A stretch of DNA of 64,000 nt. It comes from Sinimarinibacterium flocculans (GTDB taxonomy: Bacteria > Pseudomonadota > Gammaproteobacteria > Nevskiales > Nevskiaceae). Location: positions 1 to 64,000 of the forward strand of contig NZ_QICN01000013.1 of NCBI RefSeq assembly GCF_003201205.1, in the 5' to 3' direction. The notes under the pieces are model-generated. The model had not been told where the DNA came from and did not search any database. It saw only the letters and a list, made by a program, of their open reading frames with translations. A program made the position numbers and the translations under genes. Positions 21,450 through 56,947 of the stretch are shown in pieces. How positions within the stretch are numbered: the first letter of the stretch is position 1; each line of letters starts with the position of its first letter.

Positions 21450-22940
21450 TCACCCTTTCGCGTGAGACGCCGCGGCGAGCCCCGCCTGCCGCCCGAAGAA
21501 GGTCGCGTCGGCCAGCGACATGCCGGAGCTGTAGCCCGCACCCCAGCGCGGCAGGCCACAGGCGGTGCGGCCAGCGGCATACAGCCCGGGGATCGGCCGG
21601 CGCGACGCATCCAGCACCTCGCCGCTCGGCCGCGTGTCGAGGCCGCCGAGCGTGAAACTGAAATAGACGGCGTGGTCGATGCGGCAGTCGAGCGCGACGA
21701 ACGGCGGCTGCGTCAGCGGCTTGAGCCACTTCGGCTGCTTGCGGAACAGCGGGTCGCGCCCTTCCGCGGCGTGGCGGTTGTAGACCGCGACGGTGCCGGT
21801 CAGCGAACCGGCGGGCAGTTCCAGGTCGCGCTCGACTTCGTCCCAGGTCTCGCCGGCGGCGCCGATACCGATCTTCGCGAACTCGCTGAAGGCCGGCTCG
21901 GCGTAGATGTCCTGGTCGAGCAGCAGCCAGAAGCGCGTGCCGCTCTGCTGCAGGATGTGCTGCGCGGTGCGGCCGTGGTAGCCGTCCTCGTTGACGAAGC
22001 GCTGGCCCTGCTCGTTGACGAAGATGCCCTTGATCAGCTGCTCGGGCGGATACCAGGGCAACGTCACGAAGCCCTCGCTCATGTGGATCGCGTGCCCGCC
22101 GACGCTCTGGCCGAGCTGGATGCCGGAGCCATCGTCGACGGTGCCGATCGGCATGTTCGAGCGCGCCATCTGCGGGGCGTGCTGGCGGATCATGTCGCGG
22201 TTCATCACGAAACCGCCGGCGCACAGCACCACGCCGCGCTGCGCACGCGCGCAGCGGTCGACGCCGGCGCTGCGCAATACCATCCCGCAGACGCGGCCGT
22301 CGTCGTCATTGATCAGCGCCTGCGCGCGTGTGTCGTAGCGCACCTCGACCGGCAGCTCGGCGACGCGTGCGGCCAGCGTGTCCATCAGCAGCTTGCCGCC
22401 GCCCAGGCCCTCCCACTGCGGTGTGTGACCGCGCGGGCACGGCTTGGCCTGCTCGCAGAACGGCCAGGCCTGCTCGCTGCCGCTCCAGATCAGGCAGTCG
22501 TCGGTGAACGGTTCAACGATGCGTTCGGCGATGAACGAGTTCTTGTAGACCAGCCCCTGCGCCTGCAGCCACTCGAAGTGCGCGAGGCTGTGGTCGGCGT
22601 ACAGCCGCACCTTGTCCGCATCGGCATCGGGACCGCCGGCGAGCATCAGGTAGCGATACAGGTCCTCGGTGTCGTCGGAGAAGCCCGCGGTGCGCTGCTG
22701 CAGCGTGCCGCCGGAGCCGCCGACGTAGATCTCGCCGCCGGACAGAGCCGAGGTGCCGCCATGCGCGGACGCGGCCTCGACCAGCAGCGTGCGCGCACCG
22801 GCGCGCGCCGCCTCGATCGCGGCGCAGGCACCCGCCGCGCCGAAGCCGACGACGATGACATCGGCCTCGCCGTCCCAGCGCGCGACCGCCGCCGCCCGGC
22901 ACGGACGGTTGCGCGAATACGGCAGCGTCTGTTCCACCAC
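21450..22940 (-). CDS. FAD-dependent oxidoreductase, KstD/fumarate-reductase type
   Basis: A flavoprotein of about 496 residues. It has a dinucleotide-binding motif VIVVGFGAAGACAAIEAARA, then GGTSALSGGEIYVGG (FAD-binding and substrate-loop region), and ends with GLYAAGRTACGLPRWGAGYS SGMSLADATF, the typical C-terminal FAD motif. The family includes 3-ketosteroid delta-1-dehydrogenases and fumarate reductases. The start is chosen at GTG 22940 (or the next GTG at 22937) because GGGGAG lies 4-7 bases upstream; an ATG at 23021 would add an unlikely Arg-rich tail. With the SDR and SnoaL-like genes it suggests steroid or terpenoid ring oxidation. Confidence 0.87.
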   Translation of the reverse strand: MVEQTLPYSRNRPCRAAAVARWDGEADVIVVGFGAAGACAAIEAARAGARTLLVEAASAHGGTSALSGGEIYVGGSGGTLQQRTAGFSDDTEDLYRYLMLAGGPDADADKVRLYADHSLAHFEWLQAQGLVYKNSFIAERIVEPFTDDCLIWSGSEQAWPFCEQAKPCPRGHTPQWEGLGGGKLLMDTLAARVAELPVEVRYDTRAQALINDDDGRVCGMVLRSAGVDRCARAQRGVVLCAGGFVMNRDMIRQHAPQMARSNMPIGTVDDGSGIQLGQSVGGHAIHMSEGFVTLPWYPPEQLIKGIFVNEQGQRFVNEDGYHGRTAQHILQQSGTRFWLLLDQDIYAEPAFSEFAKIGIGAAGETWDEVERDLELPAGSLTGTVAVYNRHAAEGRDPLFRKQPKWLKPLTQPPFVALDCRIDHAVYFSFTLGGLDTRPSGEVLDASRRPIPGLYAAGRTACGLPRWGAGYSSGMSLADATFFGRQAGLAAASHAKG

Positions 22941-23038
22941 GTCTCTCCCCGACAGGCCGTGGCGGCACTCTCGCAGAGCGAAACGGTCGCGGGCTCGTCC
23001 GGATGCAGCAGGCGCCGGCAACGGGCAATATCCTGCCG

Positions 23039-23638: not shown

Positions 23639-24142
23639 TCAATACGACTGACCGCGATAGGTCCGCTTGGGCTTGGGCGCAGCGTCCGTCGCCGGATCTT
23701 CGTCGCCCGACGTGCTGGGCGAAGTCGGTGCATCGATGGCCACGCCGCGGTAGGTGCGCTTGGCACTGAGTTGTGCGGCGGCCTGGCGCGCCGCGGCTTC
23801 CGCATCGGCACGGGCGCGCGCCAGCGCGCGTTCGATCGCGCCCTGCAACGTCTGGATCAGCACCTGCATGCGGATCGGTCGCGCGATGTCGACGTCCACG
23901 CGCAGATGTCCGGCAAAGCGGATGACCTCCCGGGGGCGAAGCTGATGCAGTCCTTCGAGCGTCTTCGCCGTGAGCGGGTGGTCGACATCGGCGACGACGA
24001 TGGCAGCGTCGTCGACCTTGGTCCACTCCAGGTCCGCCGGCAGCAAGGCCGGCCCGGATACCGCGCTGATCGCCGCCAGCAACACACGTCGTTCGTGGTC
24101 GCCGACGCCGAGCAGCGCCACCGTGACGGACGGCCGTGGCAT
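23639..24142 (-). CDS. Small protein with two KRTYRG motifs, unknown
   Basis: A 167-residue cytoplasmic protein I do not recognise. The first 85 residues alternate strands and helices (VTVALLGVGDHERRVLLAAI, DDAAIVVADVDHP) and look like a receiver-like or small nucleotide-binding fold without its motifs. An Ala/Arg-rich helix (residues 95-125, probably coiled coil) follows. The tail carries KRTYRGVAID and, at the C-terminus, KRTYRGQSY, separated by an acidic Ser/Thr/Pro linker. Short YRG-containing motifs recall the DUF4278 type, but this is weak. It is the last gene of the leftward DUF3604-HupE operon, 85 bases after the LolA-like gene; that gap holds a small GAACCC/GGGTTC hairpin. Confidence 0.72.
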   Translation of the reverse strand: MPRPSVTVALLGVGDHERRVLLAAISAVSGPALLPADLEWTKVDDAAIVVADVDHPLTAKTLEGLHQLRPREVIRFAGHLRVDVDIARPIRMQVLIQTLQGAIERALARARADAEAAARQAAAQLSAKRTYRGVAIDAPTSPSTSGDEDPATDAAPKPKRTYRGQSY

Positions 24143-24227
24143 CGCTCGCTCGAACCCCCGCTCGAACCCAGTACGGGTTCAAGCTCAGCAAGATCGGTGC
24201 CATGCCCGCGCCGACCGCGGGCCGGGG

Positions 24228-25031
24228 TCAGCGTGCGAGGTAGAAGCGCTCCGGATCGAAGTAGCGCGCCGGTGTCTCCTGCTCGGTGCGCACGTCGAGC
24301 ACACGCAGCACCGTGTGACCGCCGTCGACGAGGTCCGTCATCGTCATCGATCCCACATACCAGTGGCCGTTCGACTGGACCATGGCATCGGGATCGGCAC
24401 GCAGTCGCTTGACCACGCGCTCGCCCTCCAGGAACTCGAGCTGCCGGGTCAGGCAGGTGCGCCGATCGACCCAGCCGCGCACGCCGGTGTAGCGCGCGCC
24501 GGCATCGGCCTCGGGCGCGAAGCTCATCAGCCACGCCGGCTCGCCGTCGAGCTCGGCCTCGCCCTCGAAACGCGGCGTCGCGTCGCTGAAGGCGTTCTGC
24601 ATCTGCTTGAACTCGTAGTAGCTGAAGTTCGTGCCCAGCAGCGCGCCGTCGGCGAACTCGCCGCTGACGCGGCGGACCCGCTTCACCGAGGGCAGATAGA
24701 CCCACATGCCGTCGCGCTCTTCCTCTTCGGCCTGGCGGACGAGGTAGGCCGCGCCGTCGAGATAGTCCGGGGCATCGATGAGCAGCGTCGCCCGCACCAG
24801 CGGGTAGCCGGACTCGACGCCCTCGCGCTGCGCATACAGCCGCCCGCGCAGCACGCGCTCGCCCCCCTTGGGATCGGTGGCCGTCATCTCGATCTGCTGG
24901 ATGCGCAGCCGGTCGGGCACGCTGGCCTGCATGCACGCCAGCACCGCACCGAGATCGGCCTGCGCCGCACCCGGCAACGCCAGCCCCAAGGCGATCAGGA
25001 TCGCCGCCCCCACCCTCCGATCGTTGTTCAT
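24228..25031 (-). CDS. LolA-like outer-membrane lipoprotein-sorting protein
   Basis: A 267-residue periplasmic protein with signal peptide MNNDRRVGAAILIALGLALP ending AQA. The mature region has the features of the outer membrane lipoprotein-sorting (LolA-like) family: GRLYAQREG, MWVYLPSVKRVRRVSGEFAD, GTNFSYYEFKQM and a late RVLDVRTEQETPARYFDPER. Such proteins often accompany RND exporters of the MMPL type; here no exporter is present, and it follows a HupE-like gene by 41 bases. The ATG at 25031 is chosen because it precedes the signal peptide; the frame stays open upstream. Confidence 0.86.
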   Translation of the reverse strand: MNNDRRVGAAILIALGLALPGAAQADLGAVLACMQASVPDRLRIQQIEMTATDPKGGERVLRGRLYAQREGVESGYPLVRATLLIDAPDYLDGAAYLVRQAEEEERDGMWVYLPSVKRVRRVSGEFADGALLGTNFSYYEFKQMQNAFSDATPRFEGEAELDGEPAWLMSFAPEADAGARYTGVRGWVDRRTCLTRQLEFLEGERVVKRLRADPDAMVQSNGHWYVGSMTMTDLVDGGHTVLRVLDVRTEQETPARYFDPERFYLAR

Positions 25032-25072
25032 CCCTGTCTCCCTTAGTGTTCCGCCCGTCGTCGCCTGCGCCG

Positions 25073-26074
25073 TCAGAGCCACAGAACCGCCCCACGGTCC
25101 CAGCACCAGTAGGCCGCACAGCTGCCGATACCGTACGCCGCCGCGACCCGCGCCGCCATCCATCCACGCTGCCGGAATCCCGCCCGTCGCCACAGCGCGG
25201 CGATACCGAACGCGACGCCGACGGCGACGAGCTGGCCGAGCTCGATGCCGAGATTGAAGGCCAGCAGCGCCTGAGGAATCTCGTCGAGCGGCAACCCGGT
25301 TTCGGCCAGCGCACCGGCGAAGCCCAGGCCGTGCAGCAGGCCGAAGCCCGCGGCCATGGCCCAGGGCGGCGACCGCCGCGATGCCGGCGCCTCGCTACGG
25401 CGCAGGATCGCCGTCGCCAGCCACAGGATGCTGGCAGCGATCGCCAGCTCGGTCAGCACCGGGCTCACGCGCACCAGGCCCAATGCGGCCAGGCTCAGCG
25501 TGACGCTGTGGCCGAGCGTGAACGCCGTGAGCGTCCACACCAGCCGGCGCAGCCCGGAGACGAGCAGCAGCAGGCCGAGCACGAACAGCAGATGATCCGG
25601 ACCGAGCAGCAGGTGTTCGATGCCCAGCGCCAGGTACTGCAGGAACACCGGCACCGCCGCGTCGGCGGGGGCGATCACGTGCACGCTGCGTCCGGCCTCT
25701 AGCAGCACCTGCTGCGCCGCGCCGTGCAGCCACTGGATACGCAGGATCACGTTGATGCCGGCGCGCTCGAGTCCATCGACGCCGATCCGGCGATGCACGA
25801 TGCCGCCGGGGCAGCGCAGCGCCCAGTGCTCGACCCAGGCCGCGTCGCCGTCGACGGCCGTGCCCAGCTGGCGCTGCGCCGTGCAGCCGTCGGGCCACTG
25901 CGGCTGCAGCGGCGCCCCGGGTGTGCGCACGCGCGAACTGCGCCAGAGCACCTCGTAGTGGTCGGGCGCCGTTTCGTGCACCGACAGCAGCGCCGGCGCC
26001 AGCGGGTGTGCTCCGGCCGTCGCGGCCAGCAACAGGCCGGCGGCGGCGATCAGTCCGGACAGCGCCCCGCGCAT
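25073..26074 (-). CDS. HupE/UreJ-family membrane protein
   Basis: A 333-residue inner-membrane protein. A signal peptide and an extracytoplasmic N-terminal domain (to about residue 150) precede six or so membrane helices. Family motifs are GIEHLLLGPDHLLFVLGLLL, TAFTLGHSVTLSLA, FGLLHGLGFAGAL and NLGIELGQL; the His and Asp residues within helices are the expected metal ligands. HupE/UreJ proteins are thought to move nickel or related metals, but this long two-domain version is uncharacterised. The ATG overlaps the upstream parvulin gene by one base (TGATG). Confidence 0.9.
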   Translation of the reverse strand: MRGALSGLIAAAGLLLAATAGAHPLAPALLSVHETAPDHYEVLWRSSRVRTPGAPLQPQWPDGCTAQRQLGTAVDGDAAWVEHWALRCPGGIVHRRIGVDGLERAGINVILRIQWLHGAAQQVLLEAGRSVHVIAPADAAVPVFLQYLALGIEHLLLGPDHLLFVLGLLLLVSGLRRLVWTLTAFTLGHSVTLSLAALGLVRVSPVLTELAIAASILWLATAILRRSEAPASRRSPPWAMAAGFGLLHGLGFAGALAETGLPLDEIPQALLAFNLGIELGQLVAVGVAFGIAALWRRAGFRQRGWMAARVAAAYGIGSCAAYWCWDRGAVLWL

Positions 26075-27012
26075 CAGCCCGACTCCGCGCCGGCGGCGAA
26101 CGGGGAAAGTTCGACGCGATAGCGCGCGCGCAGCGCCTGCAGCGCCGCCTGCCTGCGCTCATCGCGCTGCGAGACCGCCCAGGCGGTGGCGGCGCGCGCG
26201 CCGACGCGCGCGAGATCCGGCGAACGCGCCTCGACGCGCGATTCGACGAAGACGAAGTGCATGCCGAACGTGGACCGCAGCGGTCCGACCCACTGCGCCG
26301 CGGGTACGGCGGCGAGCGCGTGCGCGAAATCCGTGCCGTAGCGCCGCGCCAGTTCGGCCTCGCTGGCCGGGGGCTGGCGTGCGCCGAGCGGAAAGGCATC
26401 GCCGAGCGCGTGCGGGACGCCCCCGCGCACAAGCTCGGCCTGCACCGCCGCGATGCGCGGATCGTCCGCGTCCGCGAACCAGATCTGGCGGAAGCCGTGC
26501 CGCGCCGGTCCGGCATAGCGCGTGTCATGGTCGTGGACGTAGGCGCGCAGCGTCGCCTCGTCGGGCACCGCCGGCGCCAGCACGCGACGCTCCATGACCT
26601 GCAGCAGGCGCCGTCGCACGACCGGATCGCTGCGCGACATGCCGAGCGCGCGCGCCTCGAACAGCAGGGCGTCCTCGCTGGCGCGACGCTCCGGAAACAC
26701 GAAGCGCATGTTCGCCAGCAGGCGTGCACGCGCGACCGGGTCGACGCCATCGAGTTCGAGCCGCAGGGCTTCGGCGAGCAGCAGCTCTTCGTCGACCGCC
26801 CGCGCGAGCTGCGCCTGCCACTCCGCATCGGCGGGTGCGCGGTCGAGCTGACGGCGCCACTCCGCATGCAGGTTCGCCTGCATCGCGGCGTCCACCGTGA
26901 TCACCGCATTCGCGGGTGCCGGCGCATCCGCGCGCCACGCGTGCTCGGCGGCGAACAGCAGGCCGCCGATCAGCGCGAAGTGCAGCAGGGGCTGGCGCAG
27001 TACGCGTCGCAT
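26074..27012 (-). CDS. Membrane-anchored parvulin-type peptidyl-prolyl isomerase
   Basis: A 312-residue protein with one N-terminal transmembrane helix (LLHFALIGGLLFAAEHAWR) that leaves the rest in the periplasm. An all-helical SurA/PrsA-like chaperone region follows (VDEELLLAEALRLELDGVDP). Residues about 165-265 form a PPIC rotamase domain (FRQIWFADADD, then GPLRSTFGMHFVFVESR). It probably folds or escorts an exported partner. The gene sits 2 bases from the DUF3604 gene stop and overlaps the HupE start, so these three proteins are made together, and one of them may be its client. Confidence 0.85.
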   Translation of the reverse strand: MRRVLRQPLLHFALIGGLLFAAEHAWRADAPAPANAVITVDAAMQANLHAEWRRQLDRAPADAEWQAQLARAVDEELLLAEALRLELDGVDPVARARLLANMRFVFPERRASEDALLFEARALGMSRSDPVVRRRLLQVMERRVLAPAVPDEATLRAYVHDHDTRYAGPARHGFRQIWFADADDPRIAAVQAELVRGGVPHALGDAFPLGARQPPASEAELARRYGTDFAHALAAVPAAQWVGPLRSTFGMHFVFVESRVEARSPDLARVGARAATAWAVSQRDERRQAALQALRARYRVELSPFAAGAESG

Positions 27013-27014
27013 GC

Positions 27015-29009
27015 TCAGTCGGTTCCGGGCGCGTACCAGATCGGCGAGGTCCAGGCGCGTTCCTGCACGGTCCTGGGATAGTCCGCGTCGCAGCAACCGG
27101 CCCATTCCTCCGGTACCGCGTCCGGATCGCTGCAGTCGATGCCGGCGGCGACGCACTGGCGCGTGGCCCAGCGGCACCCGGGGTTGTCGATCACCCGCGC
27201 GTACCAGAACGCGGACTGCGCAGGGTCGAAATCCGGGTCTTCCCAGACGGCGCACAGGCTCGAGAAGCCGTTGCCGCTGGTCTCGCAGTTGGCGAGGTTC
27301 ACGCTCGCGCCGTTGTCCGGGTCGCCGGCGACCTCGTAGACGCGCTCGTGGCGGCCATCGGCATCGACCCAGCCCTTGACGATCTGGATGCGCTGCAGCG
27401 GCTCGGCCGGATCGCCGGGCGCGCCCGGATCGCGCAGCGCCGACACCGCGAAGCGCGGTCGCGCCGCGACGGGCGACGACAGATCGCCGCCCATCGGCAC
27501 GCCCTGCGCGTAGCCGGTCTCGACGAGATCGCCGCGCGCGCACAGATCGGGCGGCAGCGTCCAGCCGCCGAAGAAGCGGACGACCGGGCGGTGTCCGCTG
27601 GTCGCGTAGGCTTCGCGTCGACGCAGCGCCGCGAACAGCGCAACGCGCGTGTTCTCCTCGGCCCAGACCACGGCCAGCCCGCCGGGACTGTTCTCGATCA
27701 GGTCCGGCAGACCGGCCGGCAGCTCGTTGCGCGCGCCACCGCCGGCGCCGCCATGCCCGGGATAGGCCGCCTCCGAGGTCAGGCCGGGCGTGCCCAGATG
27801 CGTGTCCGAGCTGCCGACGAAGCCGTACTTGAAGGGATTGGCGCCGAGCGTGCGCTCCAGCGCCAGGCCCTCGGCGAGCGCATTGCGCAGGAAATCCTGT
27901 TCCAGCGGCGCGCCGCTCGCCGACGGGCTGATCTGGCTGCCGATGAAGTTGCGGTAGGCCAGCAGCTCGAAGCCGCAGAGCTCGTCGTTGGCACCGGCAC
28001 CCACCGTCCCCAGGCATTCGGACTGACCCTTGTGCTGGTAGATCTCGGCAAGCGGCTCGTTGGCTTGGCGGATCTGCGCGAACTCGCGGGTGTAGTCGTT
28101 GTTGAAACGGTCCTGGGCCTCGAACATCAGGCCGCCCGACAGATTGGAGTTGTGCGGAATCGTCAGGTAGTCGCAGCCCTCGACCTGCGCGCACTGCTCG
28201 TCGAGCGCCTGCCACAGCAGTTCCGGCCGCGGATACTCCTGGTAGGCCGGCGGAATCTGCGGCACGACGTCGCTGCGGAAGATGACGTTGCGATGCAGGT
28301 TGTTTGACAGCGGCGCGCCGGTCCACTCGTAGCCGACAAAGGTCGTGAAGCGGCACTCGTCGCTGCCGTCATTGAAGGTCGCCGCTGCGAGCTGGATGTC
28401 CTGCCAGGGCGTCATCGCCGCGTCGAGGCAGATCTGGCCGCCCAGACCGCAGTACGGCAGTCGCGGGATGCTGCCACCCGTGCCAACGATGGGCAGGTCC
28501 GAGATCAGCGGAATATCCGGCGGTACCGGGAACTGCGGCAGCTCCGGCAGACCGACCGCGGCGAGATTGAAGATGATGAACGACTGATCCGGGAATCTGC
28601 GGTAGAGGATGCACTCTGCGCCGTAGTAGCCCAGATAGTCCGGGTTGGTGCAGATCTCGGTCTCGCCGAACAGCTCGGCGTGGTCGGTGACCGCGGCAAA
28701 ATCCAGCGGCCGCGCCAGCTGGGTCGTGCGCAGCGGCTCGCCGTTGGCGTCATACGGCTGGATGCCGAGGCGCTCGCCGGCGGCGAAGCGATAGGCCTCG
28801 TGCGGGCCGACGATCGTGCCCTGCGTATTCGCATCCAGCGAATAGCGCGTATGCACGTGCAGATCGCCGAAGTACGGATTGCGCAGCGCGCTGTAGCCGA
28901 CGCAGCGGCCGCTGCCGTCCGGCGGCGTGTCGACCTGCGTCGTGCTGTCGCCGCAAGCGGCGAGCAACATGCCGGCGAGCAGTGCCGCCGAGTGTTTCGT
29001 ACCTCTCAT
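27015..29009 (-). CDS. DUF3604 (PHP-like) lipoprotein
   Basis: A 664-residue lipoprotein. The ATG at 29009, behind a GAGAGAGGGG Shine-Dalgarno, gives MRGTKHSAALLAGMLLAACG with a lipobox. The frame upstream of this translates an intergenic repeat and is not coding. DUF3604 features are YFGDLHVHTRYSLDANTQG, AVTDHAELFG, TFVGYEWTG, IPHNSNLSGG and GSSDTHLGTPG, which hold the expected metal-binding His and Asp. The C-terminus has several Cys pairs. The family is thought to hydrolyse phospho- or sulfoesters, but this is unproven. It is the first gene of the envelope operon. Confidence 0.9.
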   Translation of the reverse strand: MRGTKHSAALLAGMLLAACGDSTTQVDTPPDGSGRCVGYSALRNPYFGDLHVHTRYSLDANTQGTIVGPHEAYRFAAGERLGIQPYDANGEPLRTTQLARPLDFAAVTDHAELFGETEICTNPDYLGYYGAECILYRRFPDQSFIIFNLAAVGLPELPQFPVPPDIPLISDLPIVGTGGSIPRLPYCGLGGQICLDAAMTPWQDIQLAAATFNDGSDECRFTTFVGYEWTGAPLSNNLHRNVIFRSDVVPQIPPAYQEYPRPELLWQALDEQCAQVEGCDYLTIPHNSNLSGGLMFEAQDRFNNDYTREFAQIRQANEPLAEIYQHKGQSECLGTVGAGANDELCGFELLAYRNFIGSQISPSASGAPLEQDFLRNALAEGLALERTLGANPFKYGFVGSSDTHLGTPGLTSEAAYPGHGGAGGGARNELPAGLPDLIENSPGGLAVVWAEENTRVALFAALRRREAYATSGHRPVVRFFGGWTLPPDLCARGDLVETGYAQGVPMGGDLSSPVAARPRFAVSALRDPGAPGDPAEPLQRIQIVKGWVDADGRHERVYEVAGDPDNGASVNLANCETSGNGFSSLCAVWEDPDFDPAQSAFWYARVIDNPGCRWATRQCVAAGIDCSDPDAVPEEWAGCCDADYPRTVQERAWTSPIWYAPGTD

Positions 29010-29031: not shown

Positions 29032-29110
29032 GTCATTCCCGCGCAAGCGGGAATCCAGGACGCAGACACGTGCCTCGCGATCACTGGATGCCCGCCTGCG
29101 CGGGCATGAC
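29032..29110. repeat. REP doublet of the GTCATTCCCGC family
   Basis: GTCATTCCCGCGCAAGCGGG at 29032 and its partial inverse CCCGCCTGCGCGGGCATGAC ending at 29110 are two imperfect palindromes facing each other around a 25-base spacer. This matches the widespread proteobacterial repeat whose translation gives PACAGMT. It lies between the DUF3604 and hydrolase genes. A degenerate copy lies at 56873-56947. Confidence 0.85.
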
Positions 29111-29127: not shown

Positions 29128-30090
29128 TTACCGGCTCTCGCCCAGCGGCTGCAAAAATGCCTGCACCGCTGCCAGCGTGCGCGCCGGATCTTCCTCGTGC
29201 GGCACATGGCCAAGCTCGTCGAACATCACCAGCTCGCTGCCGGCAATGTCCTGATGAAAACGCTCGCCGTCGGCCGGCGGAATCAGGCGGTCCTGGCCGC
29301 CCCACAGAATCAGCGTCGGCACCGTCAGCTCGCGGATGCGCTCGGACCCGGGACCGGCCTGGGCCTGGGCGAAGCGCTGGCGCAAAGCCTCGCGGTTGCC
29401 GGCGCGCAGCGTCAGCTCGTAGTAGCGGTCGACCAGCTCCGGCGTGACCTTGCCCGGATCGCCATAGACGTTGCGCACGCTCGCATCGATCATGCCGCGC
29501 GGCAGCGTGACCCGCATCAGCGGCGCCAGCCACGGCGTGCGCGCGATGCGAAAGCCGATCGGCACGTCCTCGGGCTTCAGCGGGTAGCCGGCGGCATCGA
29601 CCAGCACCAGCGCCGCAACCCGCCGCGGATGCGCGAGCGCGGTCTGCCAGGCGACCTGGCCGCCGAAGGAATTGCCGGCAATGATCGCGCGACGCACGCC
29701 GAGCCGATCGAGCAGCGCGACCACGGTTTCGACATAACGCTCGATCCGGTAGACGCCGTCCGGCGTCGGCCCGGTCAGACCGAAGCCGGGCAGATCGAGG
29801 CGGATCACCCGACGCTGCTCGCTGAGGCCGGCGGCCCAGCCATCCCAGGTATGCAGCGACGCCGAGGTCCCGTGCAGTAGCACGATCGGCGTGGTGCCCT
29901 TGCGCGGCCCTTCGTCGCGCAGGTGCACGCGCATGCCGCCGATGCGCACGAACTCCGACGGCGGCGGCGCCCAGCGCGCGCTCAGTTCCTCGACGCTGCG
30001 GTCGGGCGCCCAGCTCAGCACCAGGGCGGTGCCTACGGTCAGCACCAGCAGCAGGCCGACGCCGAACAGAAAGCGATAGAAGACGCGCAT
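29128..30090 (-). CDS. Membrane-anchored alpha/beta hydrolase
   Basis: A 320-residue hydrolase with one N-terminal transmembrane helix (FLFGVGLLLVLTVGTALVL). The fold has VLLHGTSASLHTW (oxyanion hole), GNSFGGQ (nucleophile Ser), WGGQDRLIP (Asp) and ELGHVPHEEDP (His), so a complete triad. It is followed after 12 bases by an SDR on the same strand. The substrate is unknown; the anchor suggests action at the membrane on a hydrophobic ester or C-C bond substrate. Confidence 0.9.
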   Translation of the reverse strand: MRVFYRFLFGVGLLLVLTVGTALVLSWAPDRSVEELSARWAPPPSEFVRIGGMRVHLRDEGPRKGTTPIVLLHGTSASLHTWDGWAAGLSEQRRVIRLDLPGFGLTGPTPDGVYRIERYVETVVALLDRLGVRRAIIAGNSFGGQVAWQTALAHPRRVAALVLVDAAGYPLKPEDVPIGFRIARTPWLAPLMRVTLPRGMIDASVRNVYGDPGKVTPELVDRYYELTLRAGNREALRQRFAQAQAGPGSERIRELTVPTLILWGGQDRLIPPADGERFHQDIAGSELVMFDELGHVPHEEDPARTLAAVQAFLQPLGESR

Positions 30091-30102
30091 ACCGGTTCGG
30101 CC

Positions 30103-30876
30103 TCAGCTCTTGTTGACGTTCGCGGCGTCGAGAAATGCCGGCCGCTCGCCGCCGCCGTGCAGCATCAGGTTCGTCCCCGAGACATAGGCTGCGGCATCCG
30201 AGGCCAGCCAGACGCAGGCGGCGCCGATGTCGGCCGGCTCCGCCAGCCGCTGCAAGGGGATGGTCTTGGCGACGGCGGCGACGCCGGCCTCGTCGCCGTA
30301 GTGCAGCGCCGACAGCTCGGTGCGCACCGGTCCGGGACTGACGCTGACGACGCGCACCTTCGGCGCCCATTCGACCGCGAGCGACTGCACCAGGCTCAGC
30401 ACCGCCGCCTTCGAGGCGCCATAGGCCGCAGTGCCCGGCGACGGCCGCAGCGCACTGACGCTGCCGACGAACTCGATCACGCCGCCGCCGTCCTGCCGCT
30501 GCATCAGCGCGTTGGCCTTCTGGGCGAGATGGAACGGCGCCAGCAGGTTGAGCGCGAAGATCTTCTCGTGGAAGCGCGGCGAGGCGGTGTCGGCCATCGC
30601 GAACGGCGCCCCGCCGGCGTTGTTGACCAGCACGTCGAGCCCGCCGAGACGCTGCTCGATCTGCGCGAACAGCGCATCGACGGCCGCGGTATCGCGCACG
30701 TCGCAGGCGATGAATCCGGCGGCACGGCCGCCGTCTGCAACCGGCTCGGCCGGTGCCTCGCGGCCGCAGATGACCACCTCGGCCCCGGCGCGCAGGAACG
30801 CCCGGGTGATGCCGCGGCCGACGCCCTTGGCGCCGCCGGTGACCAGAACACGCTGTGCTGCCCCCTGCTGCGACAT
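30103..30876 (-). CDS. Short-chain dehydrogenase/reductase
   Basis: A 257-residue classical SDR. TGGAKGVGRG is the cofactor motif, NNAGGAPF follows, and the active site has Ser in VGSVSALRPS and YGASK with the 13-residue spacing. The C-terminus ends SGTNLMLHGGGERP. Context is upstream of the membrane hydrolase and divergent from the meta-cleavage genes at 31034, so an alcohol or ketone of that catabolic route is a likely substrate. Confidence 0.92.
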   Translation of the reverse strand: MSQQGAAQRVLVTGGAKGVGRGITRAFLRAGAEVVICGREAPAEPVADGGRAAGFIACDVRDTAAVDALFAQIEQRLGGLDVLVNNAGGAPFAMADTASPRFHEKIFALNLLAPFHLAQKANALMQRQDGGGVIEFVGSVSALRPSPGTAAYGASKAAVLSLVQSLAVEWAPKVRVVSVSPGPVRTELSALHYGDEAGVAAVAKTIPLQRLAEPADIGAACVWLASDAAAYVSGTNLMLHGGGERPAFLDAANVNKS

Positions 30877-31033
30877 GAATCCTCCTGTGCGAAGCGCATC
30901 CTAGGCGATGCGGCCGGCGCACCCGTAGTCCAATCGGGTGAAGCCGCCGATTTGCGCGCTGCGGGACCATGCGCCCCTCACCGCCGCAGCGGCCTGCGCG
31001 CCTGCGCGCCGCACGACCGGACGCCACCTGCCC

Positions 31034-31864
31034 ATGTCCAGCAAGCCCATTCCCGAGCATCAGTACGCGACGCTGCCCAACGGCTATCGCATCCACTACC
31101 TTGATGAAGGCAAGGGTCCGGTCGTCGTGTTCCTGCACGGCTCCGGCAACGGTGCCAGCGGCTACTCCAACTTCAAGCACAACTACCCGGCGCTGGTCGA
31201 GGCCGGCTACCGCGTCATCGTCCCGGACATGATCGGCTTCGGCTACTCCGACAAGCCGGACGACGTCGAGTACCCGCTGGACTTCTTCATCGAGTGCATG
31301 AAGCAGTTGCTGGACGTGGTCGGTATCGGTCGCTACACCCTGGTCGGCAACTCGCTCGGCGGCGCCGTCGCCCTCGGCTTCGCACTGGCCCATCCGGATC
31401 ACGTCGAGCGCCTGGTGCTGATGGCGCCGGGCGGCCTCAACGACCTGCCGGATTATCTGGCGATGCCGGGCATGGCGATGATGTTCGGCCTGTTCAACTC
31501 CGGCGAGCCGGTGACCGAAGCGCGGATGAAGGAGTTCTTCCGCAAGGCCTTCGTCGTCGATCCCGACTGCGTGACCGACGAACTGGTGCGCGAGCGCTTC
31601 GGGATCATGAAGCTGCAGAACCCGCAGGTCATCAAGACCATGAAGGTGCCGAACATGACCGATCGCCTGGGTGAGATCGGCTGCCCGGCGCTGACGCTGT
31701 GGGGCCTCAACGAGAACATGATGCCGGACAGCGGCATCATGAAGCTGGCCAAGGGTCTGAAGAACGGCCGCATGGTGCTGGTGCCCAACTGCGGGCACTG
31801 GGTGATGATGGAGCACCGCGAACTGTTCAATCGCATGGTGCTGGATTTCCTGCGCAACGGCTGA
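31034..31864 (+). CDS. Meta-cleavage-product C-C bond hydrolase
   Basis: A 276-residue alpha/beta hydrolase of the BphD/TesD/MhpC group. It has FLHGSGNGASGYSNF, DMIGFGYSDKP and nucleophile GNSLGGAVALGFALAHP, and His in CGHWVMMEH. The acid position reads WGLNENMMPDSG where WGRDDRxxP is usual, so Asp may be replaced by Glu. The start at 31034 (MSSKPIP) is chosen by homology; earlier ATGs give Arg-rich sequence. The next gene starts 2 bases after its stop. It would split a ring-fission product into hydroxypentadienoate and an acid. Confidence 0.9.
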   Translation: MSSKPIPEHQYATLPNGYRIHYLDEGKGPVVVFLHGSGNGASGYSNFKHNYPALVEAGYRVIVPDMIGFGYSDKPDDVEYPLDFFIECMKQLLDVVGIGRYTLVGNSLGGAVALGFALAHPDHVERLVLMAPGGLNDLPDYLAMPGMAMMFGLFNSGEPVTEARMKEFFRKAFVVDPDCVTDELVRERFGIMKLQNPQVIKTMKVPNMTDRLGEIGCPALTLWGLNENMMPDSGIMKLAKGLKNGRMVLVPNCGHWVMMEHRELFNRMVLDFLRNG

Positions 31865-31866
31865 CC

Positions 31867-32664
31867 ATGGCGATCTCCGACGACCGCATCGCCGCACTCG
31901 GCGACGAACTGTTCACGGCACTGCGCACGCGCGCGGTGCTCGCGCCGCTGACCGAGCGCGAGACTGGCATCGACATCGAGGACGCCTACCGGATCTCGCT
32001 GCGCTTTCTCGAACGCCGTACCGCCGAGGGCGAGAAGGTCGTCGGCAAGAAGATCGGCGTGACCAGCAAGCCGGTGCAGGACATGCTCGGCGTGCACCAG
32101 CCGGACTTCGGTTTTCTGACCGACCGCATGTGGGTGAAGAACGGCGCCGTCGTCGGCATCGCGGGCAGCGGCCTGATCCAGCCGCGTGCGGAAGGCGAGA
32201 TCGCCTTCGTGCTGAAAAAGGACCTCAAGGGCCCCGGCGTCACCGAGGACCAGGTGCTCGACGCCACCGACTACGTCCTGCCGTGCTTCGAGATCGTCGA
32301 TTCCCGCATCAGGGACTGGAAGATCCGGATCCAGGACACCGTCGCCGACAACGCCTCCTGTGGCGTCTTCGTCGTCGGCGACGATCGCGTGAAGCCGCAT
32401 GCCCTCGATCTCGCCGCGGTGAAGATGGACATCACCAAGAACGGCGAGCACGTCGCCTCCGGCCTCGGCTCGGCGGTGCAGGGGCATCCGGCGACGGCCG
32501 TCGCCTGGCTCGCCAACACGCTCGGCCGCTACGGCATTCCGTTTCTGAAGGGCGAGATCATCCTGTCCGGTTCGCTGGCGCCCTTGCTGCCGGCGAGCCC
32601 GGGCGACCGTTTCCACATGACGCTGGCCGGCATCGGCGAGGCGTCCATCGGGTTTGAAGCATGA
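31867..32664 (+). CDS. mhpD: 2-keto-4-pentenoate (2-hydroxypentadienoate) hydratase
   Basis: Adds water to 2-hydroxypenta-2,4-dienoate to give 4-hydroxy-2-oxovalerate. The 265-residue protein belongs to the fumarylacetoacetase fold: [29 protein letters not shown] (metal-binding Glu residues) and CFEIVDSRI are clear, and the tail has [20 protein letters not shown]. It begins 2 bases after the hydrolase and its stop overlaps the next start (ATGA). Confidence 0.94.
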
Positions 32665-56872: not shown

Positions 56873-56947
56873 ATGCCTGTGCAGGCGGACATCCGGTACC
56901 GGAAACTGCGCCCCACGCCCCTGATTGCCGCTTTCGCGGGAATGGCG
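56873..56947. repeat. Degenerate copy of the GTCATTCCCGC REP doublet
   Basis: TCATGCCTGTGCAGGCGGAC at 56873 and CTGATTGCCGCTTTCGCGGG ending near 56942 correspond to the two arms at 29032-29110 with several substitutions. It fills the gap between the flavin reductase stop and the TonB receptor start; nothing else is seen in 56797-56973. Confidence 0.65.

Follow-up and report, generated by a model that had tools for sequence, protein, structure and literature searches.

The operon and its conserved core

We analysed a stretch of 64,000 nucleotides from Sinimarinibacterium flocculans (contig NZ_QICN01000013.1, positions 1–64,000; hereafter the window), and in particular an operon at positions 23,639–29,009 that begins with a gene of the DUF3604 family, followed by genes for a parvulin-like protein (PPI) and a permease of the HupE_UreJ_2 family (HUP). 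The joint presence of these three genes, here called the trio, in genomes of several bacterial phyla points to an undescribed system that equips an exported enzyme with metal. The genes of the operon are listed below.

27015..29009, minus strand: DUF3604 protein, 664 amino acids; ATG at 29009, lipobox LAAC, predicted PHP-fold metallohydrolase domain and C-terminal beta domain
26074..27012, minus strand: PPI, a SurA/PrsA-like parvulin, 312 amino acids; N-terminal membrane anchor predicted from sequence, PLxHFxxxG-type motif
25073..26074, minus strand: HUP, a HupE_UreJ_2 permease, 333 amino acids; signal peptide, periplasmic beta domain (residues ~23–135) and membrane domain with HX5DH
24228..25031, minus strand: LolA_like protein, 267 amino acids; PF17131 match, a lineage-specific addition to the operon
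23639..24142, minus strand: KRTYRG-tailed protein, 167 amino acids, probably outside the system

A preliminary description of this DNA had proposed that five closely spaced leftward genes form one unit. The layout was confirmed: all five lie on the minus strand, with a gap of 2 bases between the DUF3604 and parvulin genes, an overlap of 1 base (ATGA) between the parvulin and HupE_UreJ_2 genes, 41 bases from the latter to the LolA_like gene and 85 bases from there to the KRTYRG gene. The five-gene unit was rejected, since the LolA-like and KRTYRG genes do not accompany the core. This emerged from 60 further loci, searched using models built on the proteins of the window. Of these loci, 18 were orthologous (family and order of the window) and the others were distant DUF3604 matches in the phylum or paralogues, either from relatives or from the genome of the window itself. 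DUF3604, PPI and HUP were present in one stretch in 47 of the 60 loci (46 without L092, in which DUF3604 is only a fragment). The LolA-like gene (PF17131, 102.5 bits, cut-off 30) adjoins the trio in 11/18 orthologous loci and 0/42 others; among the loci examined it is an addition limited to the window's order. The KRTYRG protein matches nothing in Pfam or NCBIfam at E 0.1 and was absent from all 60 other loci, and its homologues in 8 of 36 relatives (30–44% identical) never lie beside the operon; its gene looks like a bystander.

The arrangement of the core is variable. Rough classing of 116 PPI copies gave the order DUF3604-PPI-HUP in 43 and PPI-HUP-DUF3604 in 11, the remaining copies having one partner or none directly beside them on the same strand (some were undercounted because of overlapping frames). 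The closest named relatives by DUF3604, among the best 80 of 582 loci, are Sinimarinibacterium (70% identical), Solimonas (68%) and Hydrocarboniphaga (64%). The window's genome holds two further trios, one of the first of the two branches described below (L086, G000:C4:320090-323845) and one of the second (L253, G000:C2:151685-155311). There are also two apparent remnants: a single open frame with pieces matching DUF3604 and HUP (L093:6037-7038, genome G031), and a DUF3604 fragment with a stop adjoining an intact PPI-HUP pair (L092:7178-7384, genome G151).

Co-occurrence in the phylum

In a sample of 299 genomes from the phylum, with DUF3604 counted at 200 bits or more, DUF3604 was found in 22 genomes, core PPI in 23, both in 21 and neither in 275 (Fisher P 6e-29, uncorrected for relatedness); weaker DUF3604 matches in G031, G127, G151 and G202 were left out of the 22. 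The 21 genomes carrying both span 11 families according to the labels of the tool used. The core PPI class is sharply bounded, its copies scoring at least 225 bits in one piece (the window's match is split, 196 + 120) and the next parvulin only 82. HUP adjoins every core PPI copy (27/27, in 23 genomes), and among the 30 best-scoring HupE_UreJ_2 loci, taken with 1.5-kb flanks, a PPI was present in just one, itself a trio. The PPI-HUP pair is kept even where DUF3604 is distant, being 41 kb away in G215 and on another contig in G247.

Copy numbers in the 21 genomes are unequal, with 34 DUF3604 against 25 PPI, never fewer DUF3604 than PPI, and ratios of up to 4:1; the numbers are lower bounds as not every candidate was scored, and one of four copies in G267 has an internal stop. 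PF12228, the Pfam family of DUF3604, was found in none of 14 named control genomes. The preliminary description had held that the occurrence of DUF3604 in many genomes without the other genes would speak against a system; such a pattern was seen for the LolA-like and KRTYRG genes and not for PPI and HUP.

Other phyla and a second branch

In a scan of named genomes, many of the best 80 of 582 loci came from Myxococcota, Acidobacteriota and deltaproteobacterial metagenome-assembled genomes (MAGs), and DUF3604 there often appeared solitary: of 40 of the 80 loci, 33 had no core PPI in the stretch. This at first resembled a refutation, but a search of the 39 genomes behind the 40 loci with the PPI model showed that most of them have PPI elsewhere (37/39 at 1e-10, 35/39 below 1e-30). 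Among 40 PPI regions from these further genomes, HUP was present in the same stretch in only 27 and DUF3604 in 21, thus PPI follows DUF3604 more strictly there than HUP does. In 13 loci inspected by eye, no recurrent gene was seen in place of HUP after PPI.

A second branch, in which a weaker PPI match is paired with a longer HUP, was found at four loci (L253–L256). At L253, in the window's genome, the pair is divergent from a distant DUF3604 (87.7 bits), and no DUF3604 lies in the stretch at L254, L255 or L256. Searching 241 genomes of another class with the second-branch HUP identified 12 genomes at 1e-35; of 11 regions fetched, 10 contained the second-type PPI and eight a DUF3604-like gene, encoding full-length proteins of ~740–800 amino acids (one is cut by a contig end). 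For each of the three families, distances between the branches exceed those within them, by a clear margin in DUF3604 and PPI and by a slight one in HUP; the second-branch set of nine used here includes L283, which has a first-type PPI. The identity matrices of the three families are correlated across 86 trios (r 0.73, 0.74 and 0.87) and across 56 first-branch trios without the window's order (r 0.56, 0.63 and 0.76), with 0/2000 permutations in each case and uncorrected for the species tree. At L255:4739-6583 the second-branch pair lies beside an alkyl-sulfatase gene (metallo-beta-lactamase fold), and at L256:12559-14466 it lies ~4 kb from a PhoD-type phosphatase gene; the two enzymes are possible other clients of the pair.

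Plasmids of Sinorhizobium, Rhizobium and Rhodobacter carry the trio as well. The three envelope genes might each be useful independently and be often co-inherited on plasmids or islands with no mutual action, and the plasmid-borne trios and the variation in order and orientation are what one would then expect. However, co-occurrence holds when the genes are unlinked (G215, G247 and many MAGs of other phyla) and the trio has been kept in two diverged branches, which makes this explanation very improbable indeed. The trio is, with high probability, a real system.

Predicted structures and conserved residues

The DUF3604 protein of the window matches PF12228 at 538.5 bits (Pfam cut-off 20.4). Its AlphaFold2 model (predicted local distance difference test, pLDDT, 90.9) has as its best PDB structure match the PHP-like phosphoesterase 3e38_A (Z 15.7, root-mean-square deviation (rmsd) 3.7, 228 aligned), with further matches to the PHP structures 2anu_E (Z 15.0) and 3e0f (Z 10.0), and unrelated rows reaching only Z 3.9; PDB sequence searches gave nothing useful. 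The protein is thus predicted to fold as a PHP metallohydrolase and to carry out metal-dependent hydrolysis. PHP enzymes bind their metals through a set of HxH, DH, H and DxH motifs, and across 74 DUF3604 sequences H51, H53, H110, E228, H239, H286, E322, D402 and H404 are invariant and D109 is conserved in at least 90%. The hydrolase had been described as a lipoprotein, which is borne out by the lipobox of the window protein and does not extend to the family, since only 41 of 123 non-redundant DUF3604 proteins have a lipobox (crude pattern, approximate start sites). An equally crude pattern for the twin-arginine (Tat) motif matched 0/123.

PPI of the window scores 32.9 bits against Rotamase_2 (PF13145, cut-off 27), and the family profile (A6) matches structures of SurA, PrsA and 'cell-binding factor 2', which we take to be PEB4, over the N-terminal and parvulin domains (best E 5e-12, SurA). 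In the N-terminal hydrophobic stretch a P, an F and a G are nearly invariant (75/77 each). Parvulins have two catalytic histidines. The second is present in 77/77 PPI sequences and the position of the first is strictly Q (42/77) or H (35/77); the window protein has Q and so lacks the complete pair. Isomerase activity is therefore doubtful for half of the family, the window protein included.

HUP of the window matches PF13795 (HupE_UreJ_2) at 152.6 bits (cut-off 24.5) and its AlphaFold2 model has a pLDDT of 91.2. In a VIA structure comparison its periplasmic domain (residues 24–134) matched ZrgA (8f1b, Z 10.3, rmsd 2.8, 104 aligned) and PA4063 (7ahw, Z 9.9). The top row of that comparison was a chloroplast TOC-TIC chain aligned with the membrane domain (residues 139–333, Z 10.7, rmsd 4.4); this match between helices we leave uninterpreted. 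A Foldseek search with the whole model gave no match at E 0.001, the 50 rows shown being unrelated proteins, mostly of the major histocompatibility complex (MHC), and PDB sequence searches again gave nothing useful. Seven residues are invariant in 76/76 sequences: H154, D160 and H161, which make up the HX5DH motif typical of HupE, and H189, H248, E278 and Q281. The mature N-terminal residue is H in 65/76 and D in 11/76, with no other residue found; in the window the predicted cleavage falls between A and HPLAP. By extrapolation from the model, whose residue 24 is matched to residue 36 of ZrgA, H23 would be close to His35, one of the residues that bind zinc at the conserved site of this zinc-uptake component (PMC9820375). 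Three loci, one of them from Rhizobium leguminosarum, have a classical short HupE-like gene close to the trio (L113:13429-14025, L126:7617-8870, L129:13024-13623), a possible hint at nickel.

Neighbouring genes and alternative roles

In the window the operon is flanked (21450-23021 and 29128-32664) by genes for a flavin adenine dinucleotide (FAD)-binding dehydrogenase, short-chain dehydrogenases/reductases (SDRs), alpha/beta hydrolases and a hydratase-like protein, surroundings that look like a ring-cleavage catabolic cluster. The alpha/beta hydrolase gene on the far side of the operon is retained in relatives. One further feature separates such a gene from DUF3604:

29033..29109, no strand: inverted pair of palindromes resembling repetitive extragenic palindromic (REP) elements, between the upstream hydrolase gene and DUF3604, outside the system

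The REP-like pattern was read from the same stretch and has two exact matches against 0.03 expected, the inverted pair forming a strong predicted hairpin (z-score -4.7); a weaker copy lies at 56923-56945.

Elsewhere, 16 of 147 stretches have sulfatase-type genes, named by eye and with a model built from them, in the vicinity of DUF3604 or the trio, some abutting (L089, L102-L104, L121, L123, L124, L131, L169, L171, L197, L206, L230, L237, L241 and L242). In the 22 DUF3604 genomes, four PF00884 genes (two in one genome) lie within ~1.1 kb of trio genes, compared to expectations of 0.4 within 2 kb (Poisson P 7.5e-4) and 0.9 within 8 kb (P 0.012); as 34 gene clusters were counted by hand and the distance was chosen after the fact, the link between sulfatases and the trio is suggestive only. 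Genes resembling those for SDRs, coenzyme A (CoA)-ligases and acyl-CoA dehydrogenases are recurrent neighbours, also named by eye. Together the sulfatase and catabolic neighbours suggest that DUF3604 breaks down organic esters or sulfates; its substrate is perhaps an ester, a sulfate-related or a phosphate compound that feeds catabolism.

These neighbourhoods raise the possibility of a catabolic partnership, in which DUF3604 would hydrolyse an extracellular substrate, HUP would import the product or a counter-ion rather than the metal of the enzyme, and PPI would fold DUF3604. The ring-cleavage-like surroundings in the window, the recurrence of SDR, CoA-ligase and acyl-CoA dehydrogenase-like genes and the sulfatase genes adjoining trios are consistent with this. 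We nevertheless consider it quite unlikely, as HUP retains its HupE-type ligands in 76/76 sequences together with a ZrgA-like domain, and the neighbours vary by lineage while PPI-HUP is constant.

Another possible role is the scavenging of metal: DUF3604 would break down a metal-binding compound or free bound metal outside the cytoplasm, the HUP domain would capture the ion and the permease import it, with PPI only folding proteins. Nickel is the ion moved by the permease HupE (Brito 2010, cited in PMC12537917), the protein nearest in fold to the HUP domain, ZrgA, takes part in zinc uptake (PMC9820375), and three trios (L113, L126 and L129) have a classical short HupE gene beside them. Yet a single PPI-HUP pair can go with as many as four DUF3604, only 6/147 stretches contain a TonB-receptor-like cluster (identified by eye), sulfatases and CoA-linked catabolic genes being commoner neighbours, and Zur-like boxes show no visible clustering before trios. 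That last scan (18 matches with 1–2 mismatches in 2.16 Mb, no chance estimate) is uninformative; on the whole we regard scavenging as unlikely.

A proposed maturation pair for exported hydrolases

A shared maturation service accounts better than a metabolic partnership for the near-obligate presence of PPI, for its constant pairing with a metal permease in the phylum sample and for pairs that go with several DUF3604. We propose, with a probability of about 0.5, that PPI and HUP work in the periplasm as a pair dedicated to folding DUF3604 enzymes and supplying them with metal. DUF3604 would leave the cytoplasm unfolded via Sec (in the window as a lipoprotein) and would be received and folded by PPI, a parvulin-fold chaperone at the inner membrane. 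At the periplasmic face HUP would provide the metal, with the ion held by the ZrgA-like domain and the N-terminal His or Asp and moved by the HupE-type membrane domain. One PPI-HUP pair could serve several DUF3604 enzymes per genome, and our best guesses for the metal are Zn or Ni. The proposal retains the core of the preliminary description, that an exported hydrolase is fed with metal by a membrane supplier and has a folding factor to itself, but only for three genes out of five. For these it is well supported by co-occurrence, the 27/27 pairing, the PHP fold and the metal-binding-type domain, the supply of metal being its conjectural part.

A number of observations weigh against this proposal. 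The HupE-type proteins are known importers, yet the metal of an enzyme exported via Sec is required in the periplasm. Neither the co-occurrence P value nor the matrix correlations allow for shared ancestry, and the phylum sample contains exceptions: DUF3604 without core PPI in G121, PPI-HUP without DUF3604 in G294, and PPI with only a DUF3604 fragment in G151. Two of six plasmid regions opened show DUF3604 with no annotated PPI or HUP nearby (the gene table is incomplete), four of the 39 further genomes, all MAGs, have no strong PPI (two have none at 1e-10), and 6 of 15 second-branch HUP regions (11 from the other class plus L253–L256) lack DUF3604 in the stretch. In the further genomes HUP may be optional, as only 27/40 PPI regions contain it. 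Finally, DUF3604 is also reported in Chlamydia: the sole paper found in a literature search on the family, concerning Chlamydia transposons, has a single table mention of it (PMC11925237). The direction of metal flow and the cases without HUP beside PPI are the weakest points.

A search of the literature for the combination of DUF3604, parvulin and HupE genes found nothing relevant. We tentatively suggest, going further than the proposal above and with correspondingly less assurance, that PPI-HUP could be a maturase dedicated to exported PHP-fold hydrolases, the first of its kind to be described, in which a membrane chaperone coupled to a metal channel loads the enzyme during its folding in the periplasm. 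It would exist in two old branches, the first of them seen in more than one phylum sampled here, several in all, and a single pair would serve a set of DUF3604 paralogues and perhaps further exported metallohydrolases. How exported metalloenzymes acquire metal outside the cytoplasm is poorly understood, and a widespread enzyme family that rarely occurs without a particular chaperone and metal permease offers a case in which the question can be approached by genetics. Testable roles thereby follow for DUF3604 and for the PPI-HUP pair, and, if the suggestion is true, the recently described permeases with an N-terminal His gain a biological client.

Comparison with known systems

DUF3604 has its fold and its HxH/DH/H/DxH ligands in common with PHP hydrolases (3e38, 2anu and the carbaryl hydrolase CehA/McbA), and differs from these in being exported and in having a C-terminal beta domain; against the CehA/McbA model NF038032 it scores 16.1 bits, under the cut-off of 80. 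PPI shares its sequence profile over the N-terminal and parvulin domains with the parvulin chaperones SurA, PEB4 and PrsA, but lies in an operon with one enzyme and a permease and has Q or H in place of the first parvulin His.

HUP is of the kind of the 'anglerases', or close to it. These HupE/UreJ-2 permeases with N-terminal-His domains, described in 2025, bind Cu or Ni and have ZrgA as their nearest fold (PMC12537917). Ang-1 and Ang-2 have, like HUP, a signal peptide, a mature N-terminal His, a beta-sandwich periplasmic domain nearest to ZrgA 8F1B and a C-terminal HupE/UreJ-2 domain. Ang-1 is reported to have the mature N-terminal His in 100% of sequences, in contrast to HUP with its Asp in 11/76, and the periplasmic domain of HUP is shorter than that of these permeases; section 8 of the paper, which reports gene neighbours, mentions no parvulin or DUF3604 (PMC12537917). 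The anglerase domain 9GCE was not matched by the HUP profile (A5) at E 10 and does not appear in the VIA fold list. The zinc proteins ZrgA and PA4063 resemble the periplasmic domain of HUP in fold (Z 9.7-10.3), but unlike that domain are separate proteins of Zur-regulated operons of the MacB/ABC type (PMC11481552). The HupE nickel permease of hydrogenase operons likewise combines HX5DH with an accessory role beside a metalloenzyme, whereas the partner enzyme of HUP is exported and of PHP fold, and HUP itself carries an extra periplasmic domain.

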